Of a stretch of 33,787 bases of DNA, positions 1-14,937 are shown piece by piece. Numbering within the stretch: the first letter of the stretch is position 1; each line of letters opens with the position of its first letter. The stretch comes from a virus: IMG/VR virus record IMGVR_UViG_3300007345_000130, positions 1 through 33,787 of that record; one strand, 5' to 3'. A model generated the notes under the pieces. The model did no database searches and had not been told where the DNA came from. It worked only from the letters and a program-made list of their open reading frames with translations. The translations under genes and the position numbers were made by a program.

Positions 1-1413
1 AACCCATAAACCTATGCCTAACGCCATCGTTAAATCGTCATTGTAACCATTAGCAGCTTGTGCTTTACCATTGTGCCATATAAACGTCATTAATTCATTG
101 ATCATACGTTTAGAACGAATCGTAACTGTTCGTTCTCTAAAGTATAAATCCAACTTGGATATTACCAATGGACGTGTTCTGGACGACATAGTAAAACCAG
201 CAGTCGCTCTTTTGTCTTTAGCATTCCATTTGTTAGTAAACTGATTGTCTAAATCAATATACTTCAAATCGTCTGTCATGTAAAATAAATTTTGATAACC
301 ACGATCGATTATCTGTTGAATAGCAGCCCATCCAATTGAACTGTTTTCCACTATCAATAAAGCATTATTCCATTCTGTAGCAACCTGAACCAACAAATTG
401 CCAAAGTCTTTTGTCTCGATCTTACCACGATATTCAGCAACCTGTGTGTTGCTTTCTACATCCAATACGTGAAACGTTGAATAATCCTCTCCATCCCCAC
501 GTGATACGTCAGCACACACAACATAATCTTTTGAAAAATTAGGATGTTCCCATCGCCAATAACAATTATCCATATATTCTTTGGATATTGGCTCTATTAC
601 ATAAGTGTCTTCATACCATTTTAAAGTTTCTAAGTCAATTACAGAGTTACCGGATGAAATAAAATCGCAGTCGCATTCCTGAGCAGCTCCCTTTTGACCA
701 AGCAATACATCCTGTTCATCACGCCAATTTTGGTCATATTCTGGATGTTTTGTCCAGTGTAATTTAATCGTATTAAATTTCTGAACACCTTCCTCGGATT
801 CTTTCCACATACGATAAAACCAATTACCCATACCATTCGGTGTAGATAAAACGATCGCGTTTCCTCCACCATGAGTCATTGCTGATTGAACAGATGTCCA
901 AATCTCGTCAATCTGATCAATGAAAGCAGCCTCATCGACCACCAATAAACTCAAAGCCTCAGAACGACCAGCATCACCACTAGCAGACACTGCCTTGATC
1001 TGTGACCCATTCGCTAAACGTAAACTCGTTCTGTTGTTCTCTACCTCCTTTTGACGCATCCATGAAGGTAAATTGTCGTTCATAAAACGAACCTTAGTTA
1101 CAAGGTTCTTAGCGACGTCCTGTTTAGTAGCAATTACAAGTATAGACTTGTCTTTATGAAATGTCATCAACCACATGCCATAACCAGCAGTCAACGTGGA
1201 TATTCCCATTTGACGACATTTTAAAATGATGTTTTTGGGATTGTCTCTAAACTCACGAACACATTCCTCTTGAAACGGAAATAACTTAAAGTCGATTGTT
1301 CCCTTACTTGGGTGTTGGATTTTACAATATTTTTTCATGAAGTATGCAGGATCAGCCGCACACTTTTTATACTCAGACTTTATTAATTCACGTAACTGTT
1401 TAACTTTGTTCAT
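1..1413 (-). CDS. 17: Terminase large subunit (gp17-like), 3' end cut by window edge
   Basis: This is the motor that packages DNA into the prohead: an N-terminal ATPase and a C-terminal RNase H-fold nuclease that cuts the concatemer. The window holds 471 codons and the frame is still open at base 1; T4 gp17 has 610 residues, so the C-terminus is missing. Visible motifs are a Walker A-like CRQMGIST (residues 66-73), Walker B LLVVDE with D160-E161, the coupling motif LSTPNG (189-194), the nuclease aspartate in CADVSRGDGEDY (D302), a glutamate in LLIVENSSIGW (E356), and the late acidic pair NDD (458-460). The N-terminus is about 95 residues shorter than in T4. The start at 1413 overlaps the end of the upstream gene by 14 bases and has no clear ribosome binding site, so translation is probably coupled. 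Confidence 0.95.
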   Translation of the reverse strand, partial: MNKVKQLRELIKSEYKKCAADPAYFMKKYCKIQHPSKGTIDFKLFPFQEECVREFRDNPKNIILKCRQMGISTLTAGYGMWLMTFHKDKSILVIATKQDVAKNLVTKVRFMNDNLPSWMRQKEVENNRTSLRLANGSQIKAVSASGDAGRSEALSLLVVDEAAFIDQIDEIWTSVQSAMTHGGGNAIVLSTPNGMGNWFYRMWKESEEGVQKFNTIKLHWTKHPEYDQNWRDEQDVLLGQKGAAQECDCDFISSGNSVIDLETLKWYEDTYVIEPISKEYMDNCYWRWEHPNFSKDYVVCADVSRGDGEDYSTFHVLDVESNTQVAEYRGKIETKDFGNLLVQVATEWNNALLIVENSSIGWAAIQQIIDRGYQNLFYMTDDLKYIDLDNQFTNKWNAKDKRATAGFTMSSRTRPLVISKLDLYFRERTVTIRSKRMINELMTFIWHNGKAQAANGYNDDLTMALGIGLWV

Positions 1414-5572: not shown

Positions 5573-8500
5573 TTATATATTATTGATTGAACTGAAACCT
5601 TCTGTTTTTTTAATTTCGATTAGAGAATCTGCTAAGTCTTTAGCCGAATCAATGTGGGTGATCATCAACACGAAATCAAATTGATCTTTTAAGAATGAAA
5701 ATAAAGCAGGCATCGACGCCATAGCATCAGCATCCAAAGTTCCTAACCCTTCATCCAAACATAAAAAATTAGTCTTTGGCATATTAGAAATGTTGGTTAA
5801 TGCTATTCTTAATGCTAAATTAGATATAAATCCTTCTTTACCACTTGTCAATTCTAATGCCCAAGTTCTTTCATCATATACGATATTTCCGTTTACGTTT
5901 TTACCATCTGTATCGATAGACACATTAAATTCGACAATCTGTGATAAAATGTTATTAGCCTCCGCTTCAATCGATGGAACTGATTTACGAATGATATCGT
6001 ATGGAACTCCATCACGATTGACGCATTCTAAGTATAAACGATATGATTCAAATTGAGATTCCAATTCTTCAAATTCACGAATTTCAGATTTACATTTTTT
6101 CCGTTCATTTTTCCACAAAGTTATATTTGAATTAGTTTCCATTATTTTATTCGTTGCTAATTCTATCTTACTGGATAATTCTTTTACTTGGGAATCCAAT
6201 TCTATGATATTCTTTTTTATTTTTTCGTTTACTTTTACAATTTCAATTGAGTCGTAGTATTTTTTCTTTTTATCTTCAAGATTCTCAATTTTGTTTTTTA
6301 ATGTAACTATATCATTTTCTTTTTGTTTTACATTATTATAACATTTATGAAATTCAGATTCATTTAAAGTTAAAATTTCTTTTAGTTTTTTATATTCATT
6401 GAATGTATGTGGAATATTTTCATTGTCTTCTAAATATTGATTAATTTCTTCCCGTTGAGATACCAGCAAGTCAGCATCAGGTTTTAAAGTTTGGAGTTCT
6501 TCTTTTGCTTTTATAGCATCTTGAACAAAAGCATTTTTCATGCAAAATTCACAATCTTCGTCATATTCATGAGTATCCAAAAACTTAACTTTTTCTATTT
6601 TATTTCTTATATTAACCTTCAAAACATCTATTTTGGAATTAACTTCTTTTAGGTTATCTATTTTTGAATTAAATTCCTCACATTTGTATTCGATGTTATT
6701 CTGAATGTGTGCTTCAATTTGACTTTCAATGATTTCATTATCACGTTTGAATTTAATACACTCTTCTTTTAAAGAATCGATGTCGATTGAATCTAATAAG
6801 TTTTTATTATTTTTTAACTGACTTTCAATTTTGTCAATATTTTCATCAACATCCTCTAATCTGACAATCATTGAATTTTGTCGTATTATATCTTCCATTA
6901 AAGACTCTTTATCGTCAACGATTGAATTTTTGACCTCAACCATCTTTGAATACTTTTCTTCAGCACATTCAATAAGCGAGTCGTATTCTTCTATATCAGA
7001 CTCAATTTCATCTTTATTGAATTTCTTAATCACGCCGTTGATTTCTTTACTTTCGTCGGAAGCTATCTGATTTAATCTATCAAATACAGTAATTCCAAGA
7101 AATCTAGCAATCAAATCCTTTCGTTCGGTCTGTGACTTCTCTGTAAAATTGCTATTATCTTTTTGTAAACTTAATGTCGTTAATACAAAATCATCATATT
7201 CTCCTAAAAACGATCTTATGATCTCATTCGTTGAACGTCTGCTTTCATCATTTAGATTTTCTCGCTCACCATCAATCATTCTCCAGAAATCAACATTTAC
7301 CGAAACCTTACCTTTTTTATCACGTTTAGCTGACCGTTCTATATAATAATCAACTCCGTTTAATTCAAAATTAAATTTAGCATGAAAACTCATTTTGCTT
7401 TCATTCATTACCTCAGAAGCCTTAAACGTCCGTTCACATTTATCCCAAATGCAAAAACACAAAGCACTCATTAATGAACTTTTTCCACTGGCATTTCCTG
7501 CGAAAATTCCATTTATACCTTCTAGTTTTGTAAAATCGATTGTATTATCTTCTCCATATGAAAACATATTACTAAATTCAAATTTTTTTGGAATCCATTG
7601 TATACAGGGTGATTTGTCTTCAGCTGATAATTTAGAATTTACGTCTTTATTTATTTCAAAAACGCCATCGACTATTTTTTTATGTAATTTAGGATATTTT
7701 GCATTCAAAAAGTCTTTTATCAAATCATTTTGGAATGTCACGTCATTCAATTTACTTAGTTGAACATCAGAAACCTCCCCACGTTTTATATCTTTTATTT
7801 TTTCACCACGAATATAAGATACTTCTTCCAAATCGGATAACTCTCCAATGTCAGATACCGCTGATTTAACATCCTTTTGTTCTGAATTATAACAACGGAT
7901 ACGAAGTCTTGCCTTTTTTGGAATCTTTTTTAAATCGGTTTCAATCTTACCTTCTTTGATATCCACCGTGAAATAACCGTAATCATTTTTTAAATTAAAA
8001 TGTTTATGTTCACGTTTTTTAACATCCCAAACACAATATCCATGTTTGTCTAAATTTTCACCGTGATTTTGTTGAACTAATGATCCAGGATATACAATCG
8101 CAGGTAAATCATTTTCTCCATCGAACTTTTGTAACGTCTGATATTTGTGAATGTCGCCTAATAACGCCATATCAAATCCATCGAACTTACGTATCGTAAC
8201 CATTTTGTTGCTTACTTCATACCCAATATCAGTCTTTGCAGCGTTCATTGGCCCATGCCATAAAGCAATAGTCGTATCCACTTTATCACGAAAGCTCTTT
8301 GGGATTTTATCAAATGTTATATATTTCTCAACGTCTTCAAATATACCAAAATGTGAAAATAAAATATTCTTACATTTATATAATCCATTTTCTCTAAGAT
8401 AATGAACGTGTTTGTTATTCAAAGCATCAACAACAGGACTGATAACGTCTAATCGTTTTGTATTGTTTAAATTACAATCATGGTTGCCTGGTATAACAAT

Positions 8501-8764
8501 AGTATCTGTTAAATTAGCACAATTAACAAACAAGTCTGTCATCTCTCTAACCAACTCAGGGCTAGTTTCTACCTTACTGTGTGCTATATCACCAGCAACG
8601 ACAATCAATGAATTTTTCGTTCCTTTGCGTTTTACTGCTTTATAAAACTTTTCAAATACCTCTCTATATTCTTCATGTCTAGTTACGTTACGAATATGAA
8701 CGTCTGCTATATGATAAATCTTTTCAATCTTTTCGTGTTGTATTTCGATATATTCTAAATCCAT
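5573..8764 (-). CDS. Fused gp47-gp46 (SbcD/Mre11 + SbcC/Rad50) recombination nuclease
   Basis: One 1063-residue chain holds both halves of the phage recombination exonuclease, which resects DNA ends for recombination-dependent replication. Residues 1-340 are an Mre11/gp47 metallophosphoesterase: DVH (21-23), GD (58-59), GNHD (93-96), SH (137-138), WHG (169-171) and GDIH (203-206). After a linker of about 50 residues the Rad50/gp46 ATPase begins: Walker A GNASGKSS (423-430), long coiled coils (about 575-730 and 750-905) around a zinc hook CEFC (738-741), the ABC signature around SGKEG (974-978), Walker B FLCLDE with D1004-E1005, D-loop GTLD (1008-1011) and switch histidine H1037. In T4 these are two genes of 339 and 560 residues. 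All motifs are intact and the frame is unbroken. The start follows the primase stop by five bases, without a Shine-Dalgarno sequence. Confidence 0.95.
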   Translation of the reverse strand: MDLEYIEIQHEKIEKIYHIADVHIRNVTRHEEYREVFEKFYKAVKRKGTKNSLIVVAGDIAHSKVETSPELVREMTDLFVNCANLTDTIVIPGNHDCNLNNTKRLDVISPVVDALNNKHVHYLRENGLYKCKNILFSHFGIFEDVEKYITFDKIPKSFRDKVDTTIALWHGPMNAAKTDIGYEVSNKMVTIRKFDGFDMALLGDIHKYQTLQKFDGENDLPAIVYPGSLVQQNHGENLDKHGYCVWDVKKREHKHFNLKNDYGYFTVDIKEGKIETDLKKIPKKARLRIRCYNSEQKDVKSAVSDIGELSDLEEVSYIRGEKIKDIKRGEVSDVQLSKLNDVTFQNDLIKDFLNAKYPKLHKKIVDGVFEINKDVNSKLSAEDKSPCIQWIPKKFEFSNMFSYGEDNTIDFTKLEGINGIFAGNASGKSSLMSALCFCIWDKCERTFKASEVMNESKMSFHAKFNFELNGVDYYIERSAKRDKKGKVSVNVDFWRMIDGERENLNDESRRSTNEIIRSFLGEYDDFVLTTLSLQKDNSNFTEKSQTERKDLIARFLGITVFDRLNQIASDESKEINGVIKKFNKDEIESDIEEYDSLIECAEEKYSKMVEVKNSIVDDKESLMEDIIRQNSMIVRLEDVDENIDKIESQLKNNKNLLDSIDIDSLKEECIKFKRDNEIIESQIEAHIQNNIEYKCEEFNSKIDNLKEVNSKIDVLKVNIRNKIEKVKFLDTHEYDEDCEFCMKNAFVQDAIKAKEELQTLKPDADLLVSQREEINQYLEDNENIPHTFNEYKKLKEILTLNESEFHKCYNNVKQKENDIVTLKNKIENLEDKKKKYYDSIEIVKVNEKIKKNIIELDSQVKELSSKIELATNKIMETNSNITLWKNERKKCKSEIREFEELESQFESYRLYLECVNRDGVPYDIIRKSVPSIEAEANNILSQIVEFNVSIDTDGKNVNGNIVYDERTWALELTSGKEGFISNLALRIALTNISNMPKTNFLCLDEGLGTLDADAMASMPALFSFLKDQFDFVLMITHIDSAKDLADSLIEIKKTEGFSSINNI

Positions 8765-8769
8765 TGTGT

Positions 8770-9693
8770 TTATAATGAAAGTTTCATGTTAATAAAGTCT
8801 GTAAATCCAAAATCATTCGTGTTGTTGATTAAATTGTGGATTTTCTTATATCCCATTTCCGATGGGTCTTTTTCATTTAATTTAACGGCATGAACGTTTA
8901 TGCCATACGATTGTAATTCTTCAGTGTTTTTCATGACATTAAATAAAGCATCGTTATCTAAAATAATATAAACGTCTTTAACTCCATTCATAATTATTTT
9001 AAATACCAATTCTTCAGGTAAAGTTTTTCCAAATAAAGGTATAGCATTTCGTTTTATTGCTATTGCGTCAAAAATTCCTTCCACTAAATATAAAGGCTGT
9101 GTGTAACTTAAAAACATTTCAAACCCAACCACATTTTTTGACACCTTTGGATTTTTATACTTCAGTGGGTGGTCTGGTATCCATGTTCTACCAACAAAAT
9201 AATTTAACTGTCCATTTTCGTCATAACTAGGTAATATGATTCGTTTTTCATATTCACCTTTGTCGCAATAACCAATGTTATATTTTAAAATTTCCGCCGG
9301 AGTTATTCCACGTTTTTTCAAATAATGTATTGCATGATTGTATGAAAAATCGTTTTGTTTGTAACACAAACTTTTAAATTCATCAGGTAACCGCAGAACT
9401 TCATCAACCGTTTCGGTTTTGTGTTCATAATCACCTTGGATTAATTTTAATTGTTTTAATCCTTCGTATAATTTTTTTGGAACTTTTAAAAACTTAAATA
9501 AAGTTCTAATGCTTTTTCCTCTTGTGTCGTGTGAATGTCCACAAATCCAACATTTCCAATTCTGAGTCTCCAAATTTACAGACAACTTGGGTTTGTGGTG
9601 GTTACAACATGGACAGAAATAAAGCGTCTCGCCACCACGAACCTCTTGACCTGTATGACCAAACGCTTTATCTATTAAACTTTTCAACGACAT
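8770..9693 (-). CDS. 61: DNA primase (gp61-like, zinc finger + Toprim)
   Basis: Makes RNA primers for lagging-strand synthesis, working with a replicative helicase not in this window. The 307-residue protein has an N-terminal zinc-binding module (C27/C30 and C48/C51, CPCC and CWIC) followed by a Toprim catalytic fold: LVEGIFDA with E205 and D209, then IILDNDA with D246 and D248. There is no helicase domain, which fits the T4 arrangement of separate primase and helicase (T4 gp61 is 342 residues). A consensus sigma-70 promoter lies immediately upstream, its -10 box ending 8 bases from the ATG, with no room for a ribosome binding site. No other Met lies near the N-terminus, so the message may be leaderless. 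The fusion nuclease follows 5 bases later and is probably co-transcribed. Confidence 0.93.
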   Translation of the reverse strand: MSLKSLIDKAFGHTGQEVRGGETLYFCPCCNHHKPKLSVNLETQNWKCWICGHSHDTRGKSIRTLFKFLKVPKKLYEGLKQLKLIQGDYEHKTETVDEVLRLPDEFKSLCYKQNDFSYNHAIHYLKKRGITPAEILKYNIGYCDKGEYEKRIILPSYDENGQLNYFVGRTWIPDHPLKYKNPKVSKNVVGFEMFLSYTQPLYLVEGIFDAIAIKRNAIPLFGKTLPEELVFKIIMNGVKDVYIILDNDALFNVMKNTEELQSYGINVHAVKLNEKDPSEMGYKKIHNLINNTNDFGFTDFINMKLSL

Positions 9694-9740: not shown

Positions 9741-10241
9741 CTATTTATTATAACATGCTAATACAATGGCATCATACATATCAATGTTCTTTTTGTCAAA
9801 GTTGCCTGCTCTGTTGATATGAACCCACCTAGACGTGTCAAATCTCTTTTCTATCTCTTGTTTGACATAATCCTTAGAGTTGATACCTTTGACTCTTGCT
9901 TTACCAAATAGCGACTTTCTAGCGGTATTTACATTAACAAGATGAATCGGAACAGGGTAAAACTTATCAGTTAGAATATATTCAAATATTGCATTGAATC
10001 TAACCAACTGAATTATAACCTGTTGACTTGTTCTTCCTCCGGAGAATCCACTGAGCGGAGCTTCTATATTAATTCGTTCAGGAACTCGTTTATCGCTTAA
10101 CGAATCCAAAACAGCATAAGTTTTTTCTTTTGGGGTTTCAAACTTGCTGATATCAACATAACCAGCATCTATGAGTTTTTCGTCACTCACATATGACCAA
10201 CCGACGCATGTTGTGGATGCGTCAAATCCTAATGTAACCAT
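9741..10241 (-). CDS. RuvC-like Holliday junction resolvase
   Basis: A 166-residue protein with the RNase H-fold nuclease pattern of RuvC-type resolvases. The first strand carries the metal-binding aspartate in LGFDASTTCVGW (D7), the second acidic residue is in NIEAP (E60), and the C-terminal acidic residues are in NIDMYDAI (D154, D157). It probably cuts branched DNA made during recombination-dependent replication before packaging, the job done in T4 by the unrelated endonuclease VII (gp49). It stands just upstream of primase and the gp47-gp46 fusion, which supports this role. A Shine-Dalgarno sequence AAAGG precedes the ATG. The exact substrate is inferred from the fold. Confidence 0.85.
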   Translation of the reverse strand: MVTLGFDASTTCVGWSYVSDEKLIDAGYVDISKFETPKEKTYAVLDSLSDKRVPERINIEAPLSGFSGGRTSQQVIIQLVRFNAIFEYILTDKFYPVPIHLVNVNTARKSLFGKARVKGINSKDYVKQEIEKRFDTSRWVHINRAGNFDKKNIDMYDAIVLACYNK

Positions 10242-10716: not shown

Positions 10717-13700
10717 TCACATATCGATTCTAACAATGAAATTTAGCGGATCGTTTTGTAACACTTTTATTGGCTTTCCTAATTTAGCAACCGCAACCAT
10801 TTCGTAATTTTCATTGTATAATCCAATTGACGTTACGTATGGAGATTGATAACTTCCTGTTTTGTCAATTGAAGACGATTCTAAGTAATTGTAAAATGTT
10901 GGATCGACTTGTGTTAAATTAAATTTACCGGTTAATTTATCTAAATAATTTACTACCAAATCAGGAGTGTTTCGTGTTGAATTGTCGTTTATATTTCCTT
11001 CGATTAAACGTTCATCACGTAGATTTGACCAATAATTTAACAATATATTAGCATCATAATTGTCAGCCTTTCCATCTCCATCAAAATCAAGATAACCAGC
11101 ATTATCCAACGCTACTAATTTATCATACGTGTCTGCGTCTAACTTACCACCGTCCAACTCAAATTCTTCCTGTAATACATTTGTTTCATACCCATTCAAA
11201 ACAAGAGCATCTTCAGCCTCAGTAATTATAATATCATTGTTCCACCAAGCCTCAGTTTGTTCCTGAACATAACCATTGTCGGTTGATGTTTGATCTTCTG
11301 GTAAAAATTTAAATTTGTTTAAATATCGAAGAATCAAATCTAAATCGTCAAAATCAAATATACCATCGCCATTTATATCCAATATGACCTTTTCCTTTAC
11401 AAGAGCGGAAGGATTTGTGCTTATATTAAATTCTCCTTTTTCAACAGGAATCAAAAACTCATTTTCGTATAAGGTGTGTTCTCCCTTGAAGTTGACAATA
11501 TGACCACGACTTCCTGTTGCTGTAAATATCTCACCGAAAAATGAACCCGTGTCGGTTATGGTCATTATGCCATTCTTATAAAATACATTTCCAACTTTGT
11601 AATAGTTGTTAAGATCGGGAGTATTATAAATAAATACAGACCCGCTTGCCTTCATAGGCATCCCCGACTTCAACGTTTCTAATTGAAAATATTCACTTGA
11701 ATGTGAAATCGATGTATCATAATCCTCATTTACATGAGAAGGTGCTCCAACGAAAATATATTGATCTGTGATCTTTACGGAATTTCCAAATTGTTGTGTA
11801 GAACGATTTATAAGCTTTCTTTTTGTAAAGTTCTTTTCGAGTTGCCAATTTAAATCATCATCTAAATTATAAACAAACAATTTACCAGCGTCGGTTTCAA
11901 CTTCGTAATCTTCAATTGAATATGATCCAGTTCCATCGTAAGATGCTGTTACAAACGTTTTCTCAATTGGACATCCTACCACAAATCGATTGTTTTCTAT
12001 GTCAACCGACTTACCAAACCAATTGTTTCGCAAAGTATCTCCTTGGAACATAAATCTGTCTGCAAACTTAACCCCACATTCTATAGTTTCAATGTCATCA
12101 TCACAACAATTTCCACAATAAAATAAATCCTCAGGAGGATCGCCTGCTTCATAAGCATACACCGCTCCTATATTAAAACTCTGAGACACCAATGTTACCG
12201 TTCCAAATGTAGGCGACCCCACAATTACATACTCACCATCAACCGCTACAGAATGTCCATATGAATCGCCAACGTTTTCACCAATATACTTAGGAACTTC
12301 AATTGACGCTGTGATAGAATAATTTTTATCCATCTTACAAGCAGGCAACCAAGATCCAGATACGCAACTCGATCCGCTTATCTCAACTTCTTCTCCAACG
12401 AATCTATATACATATACTTTGCCACCGCCGTGTTGTTGTCGTTTGTCGTTTCCAATAACCAATATATCACCATCCATGTCAAGACTTCCGCCAAAACGCT
12501 CGTTCTCCTTCGGATCAGGAGCAACCAATCTAGCATGCAAAACAAACGTATTTGTTCCCGATACATAAGTTGGTGGATCAGTCTCCATAAAAATAGTAGC
12601 ATCTGTGTCCTCCAGTATGAACTCACTAGCACAAAATGAATTTGTTAAAGGAAAGAAATATGAATCTTCGGGAGATACAGGCTGATAAAAACTTCCTGTT
12701 GCTATATCTAAACAAGGATCGGTTTCGTGGTTGTATGTTTTGCGTTGGTAAATATAAACCGCACCAGCATCATTGTTATATCCAGGCGCACCTACCGCTA
12801 ATACATTGTTGTTGATCTTTACAGCAAAACCAAATTCATCGTCGGTTACTTCACTTTCAAGAACGTTGATTGTTCCCCAGTGATCAATTCCGCCTTTATA
12901 TTTATCAAATACAAATACAGTACCAGAACGACTTCCGCTCAAACATTCTACATTAGGCGAACCAATTGCCATAAACTGACCTTCGATAGAAATAGCCGAT
13001 CCAAATTTGTCATCTTCTGATGTAAATGGCGAAGGTTCGTTTGACGTTACAACATATCCGCCTTGTTCCATTTCAAGTAACCACGAATCATCTGTAGCAA
13101 TTTGTAATGCAATCGAATGTTGACTCCAAGGCGAGTATAACGTTTTAAGTGATCTAAAAATACTTTCAGACACATCATACTTCATCAAATGTGCCCATCC
13201 GGCTTTAGGATGTGTTAAACTGCCACTATCATCTGGACAACCAACTAACAAATATCCGTCGGTATAATCAACTTCTTCTCCGAATCTTTCGTTTAATGGG
13301 TTGAAACTTTCTGTAGGATAAATTGTCAAGTGACGATCATTTGCGTGATGTTCTTCGTTTGTCAATGGTCTGACATTCACTTCCGATTGGAAATATTTGT
13401 CAGTCATAACCAAATTAGTATAGCCATCGTCAGCAATAGTATAAACTTCGTCCGGATTTGATTTGTCAATTATTTTTACGCTTCCGGGATGAATACTTTC
13501 ACCATACAATTCCTTTGGAACAGTTCCAACTGTAACCGTGTCATAAATTTTACGAACTTCTTTACGTTTTCCGAATTTATCGAAGTCGATTGTCTCAATT
13601 CCAAATTTATGTTCTGGATTTGAAAACTCATAAAACTGACTTTTGATTGCGTTATAAACCAATCGTTTGTAAGTTCCGTCTGTATTTAATGGGTTGTCAG

Positions 13701-13977
13701 AACCACTATAAAATAAACTAGAGGATTCGTAAAACGTTCCGGTGATTTTTTCACCGTATGAAATTTTAAACTTTTTTGAATCGTCTGCACTATATAATAA
13801 AGATGCAGACGGCGGGTTTGTGCAAAATAAGGGTAAAGCACTTCCAAATTTTTCTACCCATAAATCACACACCTCTTCCGTAAGCTCATTGTCTTCCCCC
13901 ATATTCTGAAGAAACCACGTCTTGAAAGTCTTGAATGGTCTTACGGTAATGTCGGAACGTTTTAAATTCTTTATCAT
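10717..13977 (-). CDS. Large virion protein: 7 FG-GAP repeats, dockerin-like EF-hands
   Basis: A 1086-residue protein with an unusual domain order. Residues about 228-790 hold seven FG-GAP (integrin-alpha type) repeats, each with a pattern such as ERFGGSLDMDGDILVIG, centred near 231, 324, 381, 494, 571, 653 and 730; seven repeats would close one beta-propeller. At 867-878 (DINGDGIFDFDD) and 964-975 (DFDGDGKADNYD) there are two calcium-binding loops of dockerin type, each followed by a helix. The last 40 residues match the C-terminus of the 363-residue structural protein upstream. A Cys cluster (C621, C624, C625) is also present. It is probably an appendage or baseplate-attached adhesin; the partner is unknown. 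It has no Shine-Dalgarno sequence, and a TATTTATA motif ends three bases before the ATG. A homing endonuclease gene lies immediately upstream. Confidence 0.88.
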   Translation of the reverse strand: MIKNLKRSDITVRPFKTFKTWFLQNMGEDNELTEEVCDLWVEKFGSALPLFCTNPPSASLLYSADDSKKFKISYGEKITGTFYESSSLFYSGSDNPLNTDGTYKRLVYNAIKSQFYEFSNPEHKFGIETIDFDKFGKRKEVRKIYDTVTVGTVPKELYGESIHPGSVKIIDKSNPDEVYTIADDGYTNLVMTDKYFQSEVNVRPLTNEEHHANDRHLTIYPTESFNPLNERFGEEVDYTDGYLLVGCPDDSGSLTHPKAGWAHLMKYDVSESIFRSLKTLYSPWSQHSIALQIATDDSWLLEMEQGGYVVTSNEPSPFTSEDDKFGSAISIEGQFMAIGSPNVECLSGSRSGTVFVFDKYKGGIDHWGTINVLESEVTDDEFGFAVKINNNVLAVGAPGYNNDAGAVYIYQRKTYNHETDPCLDIATGSFYQPVSPEDSYFFPLTNSFCASEFILEDTDATIFMETDPPTYVSGTNTFVLHARLVAPDPKENERFGGSLDMDGDILVIGNDKRQQHGGGKVYVYRFVGEEVEISGSSCVSGSWLPACKMDKNYSITASIEVPKYIGENVGDSYGHSVAVDGEYVIVGSPTFGTVTLVSQSFNIGAVYAYEAGDPPEDLFYCGNCCDDDIETIECGVKFADRFMFQGDTLRNNWFGKSVDIENNRFVVGCPIEKTFVTASYDGTGSYSIEDYEVETDAGKLFVYNLDDDLNWQLEKNFTKRKLINRSTQQFGNSVKITDQYIFVGAPSHVNEDYDTSISHSSEYFQLETLKSGMPMKASGSVFIYNTPDLNNYYKVGNVFYKNGIMTITDTGSFFGEIFTATGSRGHIVNFKGEHTLYENEFLIPVEKGEFNISTNPSALVKEKVILDINGDGIFDFDDLDLILRYLNKFKFLPEDQTSTDNGYVQEQTEAWWNNDIIITEAEDALVLNGYETNVLQEEFELDGGKLDADTYDKLVALDNAGYLDFDGDGKADNYDANILLNYWSNLRDERLIEGNINDNSTRNTPDLVVNYLDKLTGKFNLTQVDPTFYNYLESSSIDKTGSYQSPYVTSIGLYNENYEMVAVAKLGKPIKVLQNDPLNFIVRIDM

Positions 13978-13992: not shown

Positions 13993-14871
13993 TTAAACAA
14001 ATATCTTGTCTATAACATCATCAACAACGGTTATGTCTTTATTTATATCAGTTTCCCATAATCGATACACAATATAACCACGACGTTCTGCCAATTCTTC
14101 TTTGAATTTGTCGTTTTTTCTAACCTCATTTATTTCTTTACAATGAGACTTTGTGTTCGGATTTCCGTGCCAAAAATCACCATCAACTTCAATTAAAGCA
14201 GGTTTGCCTTTGATTTTAAAATCGTATATTTTACAAATATCACCTTCTGTTATATAAAATTGAAATGTATTATCAATTCCTAATTCATTTAACCGATCAT
14301 TTACTTTTTTTTCTAACTTATTCATCGGTTGTCTCTCAAATATTTTTTTTATAGTTTCTGGAGAGTGTGTTTTGCCATACATTGGATTGTTTTTAGGATC
14401 TTTAAGTCTTTCTTTAGCCTTTTCTCCTATTTTTTTCTTAACGTCTATCGAATGTTCCTTTCCAAACATAGGATGATTTTCTTTATTTTTCAAACGCTCT
14501 TTTGCTTTTTTGCCTATTTTTTTCTTGATTTCATCCGTCATGAAATCACGTTTTTTTCCAAAGAACGGATGTTTTTCTCCTTTTTTACCCTCACTTAATT
14601 TTCGTTTGGTTTCTTCTTTCATATGGCCTTTAGGTATACCCCTTTGCATATCACCTATCAATTGAGGGAGAAATTCAGGAGAAACTTTTCCTTTAACCAA
14701 TTTATCGCTATATGGACATATATTCCAACCGAATTCATGAAAATCTTCTATGTTTTCACGTATATATTCTTTATATACAATCCCATGCTTTGATCTTAAA
14801 TGTTTTGACATGTTTTGAATGCTACAATCAAATCCACAAACCTTACATATAATACGTTTTTGTTTCTTCAT
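13993..14871 (-). CDS. Free-standing homing endonuclease (zinc finger, NUMOD3-like repeats, Vsr-like nuclease)
   Basis: A selfish nuclease that would copy its own gene into related genomes. From the ATG at 14871 it has 292 residues: an N-terminal C2H2-like finger (CKVCGFDCSIQNMSKHLRSKH region, about 8-29), three NUMOD3-like DNA-binding repeats (GKKGEKHPFFGKK, HPMFGKEHS, NPMYGKTHS, about 95-180) separated by near-identical KKKIGxKAKERLK segments, and a C-terminal PD-(D/E)xK fold of the Vsr/very-short-patch type (DFKIKGKPALIEVDGDFWHG, then YRLWETDI). An in-frame GTG at 14886 is possible but less likely. No intron is evident, so it is free-standing, sitting between two structural genes. The target is probably a nearby tail gene in related phages, which is inferred. 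Confidence 0.9.
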   Translation of the reverse strand: MKKQKRIICKVCGFDCSIQNMSKHLRSKHGIVYKEYIRENIEDFHEFGWNICPYSDKLVKGKVSPEFLPQLIGDMQRGIPKGHMKEETKRKLSEGKKGEKHPFFGKKRDFMTDEIKKKIGKKAKERLKNKENHPMFGKEHSIDVKKKIGEKAKERLKDPKNNPMYGKTHSPETIKKIFERQPMNKLEKKVNDRLNELGIDNTFQFYITEGDICKIYDFKIKGKPALIEVDGDFWHGNPNTKSHCKEINEVRKNDKFKEELAERRGYIVYRLWETDINKDITVVDDVIDKIFV

Positions 14872-14937
14872 GATTATATATATCACGAAAAAACAAAAAC
14901 TATACGGTATCTAACTTTATTTTTAGTAAAGGCTCAG

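Follow-up and report, generated by a model that had tools for sequence, protein, structure and literature searches.

Does one open frame in a virus record join the nuclease Mre11 and the ATPase Rad50 in a single chain, or have two genes been merged by error, and what could such an enzyme do for a phage? The window, that is the whole stretch of DNA analysed here (33,787 nucleotides), is a 33.8 kb IMG/VR virus record in which the gene in question is found in one copy. The evidence given below makes it very probable that its product is a single-chain Mre11-Rad50 (SbcD-SbcC) of a T4-like myophage, acting in DNA-end resection for recombination-dependent replication.

5573..8764, minus strand: fused Mre11-Rad50 gene, a single open frame with matches to PHROG 100 and PHROG 77 and to Pfam Metallophos

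The gene consists of 1063 codons plus the stop in one open frame, while the plus strand of the same interval has stops throughout. The protein was matched by Pfam Metallophos on residues 15-208 (6.6e-15), by PHROG 100 (SbcD-like) at 14-363 (4.9e-23) and by PHROG 77 (SbcC-like) at 279-1061 (1.7e-42), and a PDB sequence search placed Mre11 chains on one half and Rad50/SbcC chains on the other. A first IMG/VR scan gave five full-length relatives of 38-41% identity; a profile scan then disclosed at least 558 stretches encoding relatives, and the 80 best of these were taken further. A single uninterrupted frame of 984-1071 codons was present in 85 of 85 IMG/VR loci (truncated at the edge of the contig in two), which represent 84 distinct contigs, L004 and L088 being the same one; many are near-copies, and conservation is given below for 40 homologues of less than about 80% mutual identity (alignment A3). 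The fusion is also present in the named Microcystis phage Mel-JY01, where it is annotated as 'AAA domain containing protein' (WWT39521). Thus frame, motifs, PHROG and Pfam matches and homologues confirm what a preliminary description had proposed from the letters alone, namely an Mre11-type and a Rad50-type protein in one 1063-codon chain, and the fusions in other phage genomes that it had suggested looking for were found.

The same description had considered that a sequencing error might have removed a stop and a start between two genes. The source is indeed a metagenomic contig, and in one relative, L158, the frame is broken at the zinc hook. A lost stop is nevertheless excluded because the 85 loci and Mel-JY01, which come from many independent assemblies, all keep the fusion uninterrupted, and the spacing across the junction is fixed, with W390 invariant; an artefact of sequencing or assembly is extremely improbable.

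Interrupted copies were encountered in a few places. The break in L158 (5897-9069) is probably a sequencing error or marks a decayed copy. In the 484 kb phage LR756508 an insert (L008:6677-7594) splits the fused gene shortly after the GDIHK motif; it holds a 305-codon frame with zinc-ribbon-like Cys motifs at its start and is perhaps a homing endonuclease or intron. Contig L092 starts in frame (3-120) with an intein-end-like sequence (..NGKISISGN) joined to CNLNN, which places the insertion at the fused gene's GNHD-C metal motif.

The domain anatomy was deduced from an AlphaFold2 model of the single chain (mean pLDDT 82.9; pTM 0.46, a modest global confidence), from structural alignment and from motifs.

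7994..8725, minus strand: Mre11 phosphoesterase, residues 14-257, with motifs I-V (V = GDIH), from Metallophos, structure match and motif alignment
7808..7981, minus strand: Mre11 capping domain, residues 262-319, from the model and from VIA-align of 11..320 against 7dog and 4m0v
7637..7741, minus strand: helix-loop-helix, residues 342-376, from model helices and conserved residues; binding to the Rad50 coil root expected
7601..7636, minus strand: inter-domain linker, residues 377-388, from the model and fixed spacing, directly before invariant W390
7016..7600, minus strand: Rad50 N-terminal lobe, residues 389-583, with Walker A and Q-loop, from structure match and motifs
6020..7015, minus strand: two coiled-coil arms, residues 584-915, with the hook in between, from model helices
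6542..6553, minus strand: zinc hook C738-E-F-C741 at the coiled-coil tip, both Cys invariant (40/40)
5576..6007, minus strand: Rad50 C-terminal lobe, residues 920-1063, with signature, Walker B, D-loop and H-loop, from motifs and structure match

VIA-align matched residues 8-328 to the SbcD/Mre11 nuclease plus cap (Z 23-25; 7dog and 4m0v are SbcD nucleases with their capping domain); the matches for residues 390-1063 were archaeal Rad50 and the SbcC of E. coli (Z 25-29), the N-terminal lobe aligning to Rad50/SbcC from residue 388-390 onwards (Z 28-29). The coiled coil is modelled as helices 584-630, 643-731 and 745-915. The model thus contains both an SbcD-like and an SbcC-like half, each of them complete, and supports a single-chain enzyme.

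The region near residues 340-395 had been taken as a linker as a whole. This holds, according to the model, only for about 12 residues (approximately 377-388), while 342-376 form two helices (342-356 and 362-376, pLDDT about 88-90) in which Q345, N372 and N376 are invariant among the 40 homologues. In Thermotoga Mre11 a helix-loop-helix binds the Rad50 coil root (PMC3175470), and by analogy residues 342-376 may do the same. In 39 of the 40 homologues N376 lies 14 residues from W390, itself invariant, so that the junction looks like a fixed structural piece and not a loose tether.

It was also considered whether the fused gene might yield two working chains, either by internal initiation, for instance at Met400, which is invariant and lies just within the Rad50 half, or by a protease acting on the linker. 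Residues 320-332 are modelled with low confidence and may be flexible. A start at Met400 would drop the first Rad50 strand (389-398 in the model), and a Shine-Dalgarno-like site precedes this codon in only 1 of 40 homologues, a weak test given that just 3 of the 40 genes carry such a site ahead of their own start codon. Phages of Bacteroidota likewise have start codons without Shine-Dalgarno-like sites. Production of two chains is judged quite unlikely, and the single-chain enzyme is retained.

Inspection of the metal site showed that four of the five Mre11 motifs, all of which had been listed as present, are canonical: I (D21-x-H23), II (G58-D59..H62), III (G93-N-H-D96) and IV (H170). Motif V instead reads G203-D204-I-H206 and not GHxH, Asp replacing the first His in 40 of 40 homologues with the second His (H206) kept. 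In PfMre11 the first His of this motif, His206, is a metal ligand. The remaining Mre11 metal ligands are kept in the 40 homologues save for Gln at His23 in one of them. GDxH occurs also in Mel-JY01, LR756508, LR756501 and PTm1, that is in every fused protein examined at motif V, while the split proteins of T4, KVP40, S-CRM01, Staphylococcus 812 and SIOphi have GHxH; the motif of Vibrio phage PG07 D12 is GDLH, unlike that of the other split proteins compared. The same His-to-Asp change has been reported for Mimivirus R555 (PMC3175470). The Mre11 half is therefore read, from its sequence, as a probable divergent relative of canonical Mre11/SbcD with GDIH as a known variant.

The Rad50 half was found to be complete, as had been claimed for its ATPase, zinc hook and signature. 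Walker A (K428/S429), Q534, the signature S974-G-K-E977, Walker B (D1004-E1005), the D-loop (D1011) and the H-loop (H1037) are all present, and these residues are invariant in the 40 homologues with the exception of K at 976. The fused set has the signature SGxE, whereas most of the split phage proteins have S-E-G-E or S-x-G-E/Q.

The genes next to the fusion offer an independent view of its function.

8770..9693, minus strand: DnaG-type primase, directly upstream (PHROG 47, 1.6e-48)
9741..10241, minus strand: RuvC-like Holliday junction resolvase, second gene upstream (PHROG 159, 2.5e-12)
5573-9693 of the window and L110:1337-2119: examples of the slot behind the orthologous primase, from the primase-locus survey

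Of the 86 related loci that extend far enough upstream, 73 have the primase immediately before the fusion, and a RecA-family gene was found in Mel-JY01, LR756508 and four large fusion-carrying contigs. The closest named-phage relatives of the window's terminase are those of Mel-JY01 (54.7%) and Flavobacterium phage immuto (53.3%). The immuto primase is 40% identical to that of the window, and the gene after it encodes a 260-aa PD-(D/E)XK exonuclease (PHROG 298); neither PHROG 77 nor PHROG 100 had a match in the 160 kb immuto genome. Conversely, relatives of the exonuclease were absent from Mel-JY01, LR756508 and three large contigs with the fused gene. Among 160 IMG/VR primase loci, 102 had the exonuclease only, 52 had Mre11/Rad50 only, none had both and six had neither, numbers that are counts and not frequencies, the loci having been fetched by two queries, half of them with immuto's own primase. 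In 154 loci the slot behind the primase is thus occupied by the fusion or by an unrelated PD-(D/E)XK exonuclease, never by both, an exclusivity that refers to about 5 kb around the primase loci plus a few whole genomes.

Outside this cassette, the window carries a NUMOD3 homing-endonuclease-like gene (13993-14886) within a block of structural genes and, between structural and replication genes, a 1086-aa protein with FG-GAP repeats (10717-13977; Pfam 2.3e-35) for which the PHROG search gave no match.

The exchange bears on whether the motif V Asp has left the nuclease dead or altered, the protein then serving as a DNA tether or structural ATPase. Nuclease activity is not to be assumed, because the His-to-Asp change touches a metal ligand, and the change is common to all fused homologues examined at this motif and to R555. 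The other metal ligands are kept, however, apart from the single His23 substitution; Asp is itself able to bind metal; and a nuclease function is suggested by the swap with a true exonuclease in the primase slot. Loss or alteration of the nuclease is accordingly regarded as unlikely, and the conserved GDxH raises the question of whether Asp can act as second ligand of the metal.

For the preferred reading, a resecting single-chain enzyme, the following arrangement is proposed. Most likely, two chains would dimerise through their Mre11 phosphoesterases and their ATP-bound Rad50 heads. Each Mre11 helix-loop-helix would pack on the coil root of its own chain's Rad50 half, and the 12-residue linker would run straight into the first Rad50 strand. 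The distance from the Mre11 C-terminus to the Rad50 N-terminus has been calculated as about 28 angstroms, bridged by 9-12 residues (PMC3175470), so that the helix-loop-helix and 12 residues should be enough for pairing in cis. The outcome would be the usual 2:2 head made from two polypeptides rather than four, and it is plausible that, as predicted at the outset, the covalent fusion fixes the stoichiometry. The enzyme would bind phage DNA ends with ATP gating the nuclease, and end resection would supply single strands to a phage RecA/UvsX recombinase; its roles may include recombination-dependent replication, end repair and perhaps host-DNA breakdown, as for T4 gp46/47.

A broader proposal, towards which we lean with some reserve, is that a large, uncultured T4-like phage lineage performs recombination only through an Asp-site single-chain Mre11-Rad50, which is exchanged as a cassette with the PD-(D/E)XK exonuclease behind the primase. 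No second strong phrog_77/phrog_100 pair was detected in Mel-JY01 (190 kb) or in contigs of 237-274 kb, where the fused gene has the only strong matches and a handful of phrog_77 hits are weak. An exception is phage LR756501 (735 kb), which beside its fusion has a separate Rad50-like gene, at 670999-672753 of its record (L009), and a weak match of SbcD type. If the proposal is true, the primase slot is a natural complementation experiment for the job of Mre11-Rad50 in phages.

Distribution was assessed against 50,697 phage records. The whole protein was matched by tblastn with at least 80% coverage in four of them, two apparently duplicates, and T4 gp47 had matches in 2,695; with the IMG/VR counts, the fused form is therefore rare in named phages and frequent in uncultured ones. 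In the trees of both domains a branch separates 42 fused proteins from the split ones (92/91 for Mre11, 99/90 for Rad50), the split side being sampled phage gp47/gp46 pairs, with R555 and 0305phi8-36 outside the set and with long branches (PTm1, LR756501 and the split outgroups) limiting both trees; the separation would suit a single origin of the fused set without proving it. In a BFVD structure search giant-virus proteins of 969-1389 aa ranked at the top (Tupanvirus, Harvfovirus, Yasminevirus, Terrestrivirus), with the Tenacibaculum phages pT24 and PTm1 slightly below, in line with the R555-type kinship proposed in 2011.

Two other assignments were rejected. A scan of genome_contigs returned eight loci on MAG contigs and one canonical split bacterial SbcD/SbcC pair (L097); a cellular origin was dismissed as most of the loci resemble binned phage. 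PADLOC matched Lamassu LmuB to the Rad50 half only (3e-19), which was read as shared SMC-type ATPase ancestry and not as a defence system.

The fusion is not new in kind. The preliminary description was unsure whether phage fusions had been described, but Yoshida, Claverie and Ogata reported such fusions in 2011, in Mimivirus R555 and in twelve other cases, including Bacillus phage 0305phi8-36, Clostridium kluyveri and Deferribacter plasmids, bacteria and eukaryotes (PMC3175470), and annotated phage isolates carry it too. According to the same paper, homologues of R555 are abundant in aquatic viral fractions and sit beside primases and other phage genes, and many of them were proposed to belong to phages (PMC3175470). 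The parts consulted of a 2021 jumbo-phage comparison describe SbcC and SbcD as near universal and do not mention a fusion (PMC7824862). In the open literature searched there was no functional study of fused Mre11-Rad50 after 2011, nor any biochemistry or structure of it, and the searches made returned no fused chain among solved structures. What is added here is the separation of the fused set from sampled split gp47/gp46 in both trees, the presence of GDxH throughout the fused members examined, and the exchange with the exonuclease in the primase slot. A compact natural fusion of 120 kDa from a large family would simplify structural work, since one chain gives a fixed 1:1 expression, and the exchange lets one ask which job of Mre11-Rad50 a phage needs, simple resection or ATP-driven end recognition and tethering.

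Compared with known systems, both halves have the fold of E. coli SbcCD and Thermotoga Mre11-Rad50 (Z 24-29), which are made of two polypeptides and share about 15-20% identity over the aligned parts. T4 gp47/gp46 have the same two domains, the zinc hook, a phage recombination role and membership of PHROG 100 and PHROG 77. The T4 genes, in contrast, are separate, with two small genes between them; T4 has GHFH at motif V and SEGE as its signature, where the window has GDIH and SGKE; and in the trees of both halves the T4-type split pairs branch separately from the fused proteins. The earlier label of a T4-type gp47 and gp46 fused is thus right as to domain identity and too specific as to kinship, the fused proteins forming a branch of their own. 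Tenacibaculum phage PTm1 ORF 75 (1318 aa) and the LR756501 protein (1202 aa) are also single-chain Mre11-Rad50, of the PHROG 35725 type, but are longer than the window protein and lie on a separate long branch; the PTm1 protein as scan query gave no match beyond its own genome, and these fusions may or may not share an origin with that of the window. The closest likeness, which rests on the description in PMC3175470 and on the structural matches to giant-virus proteins, is to R555-type fusions. These likewise have Mre11 N-terminal and Rad50 C-terminal in one chain, with a cap, a helix-loop-helix and a short linker and with Asp at the position of PfMre11 His206, and they are likewise aquatic and phage-associated, with primases among their neighbours in metagenomic scaffolds; the difference is one of size and host genome, R555 having 1351 aa and the window protein about 1060 aa in a T4-like phage.
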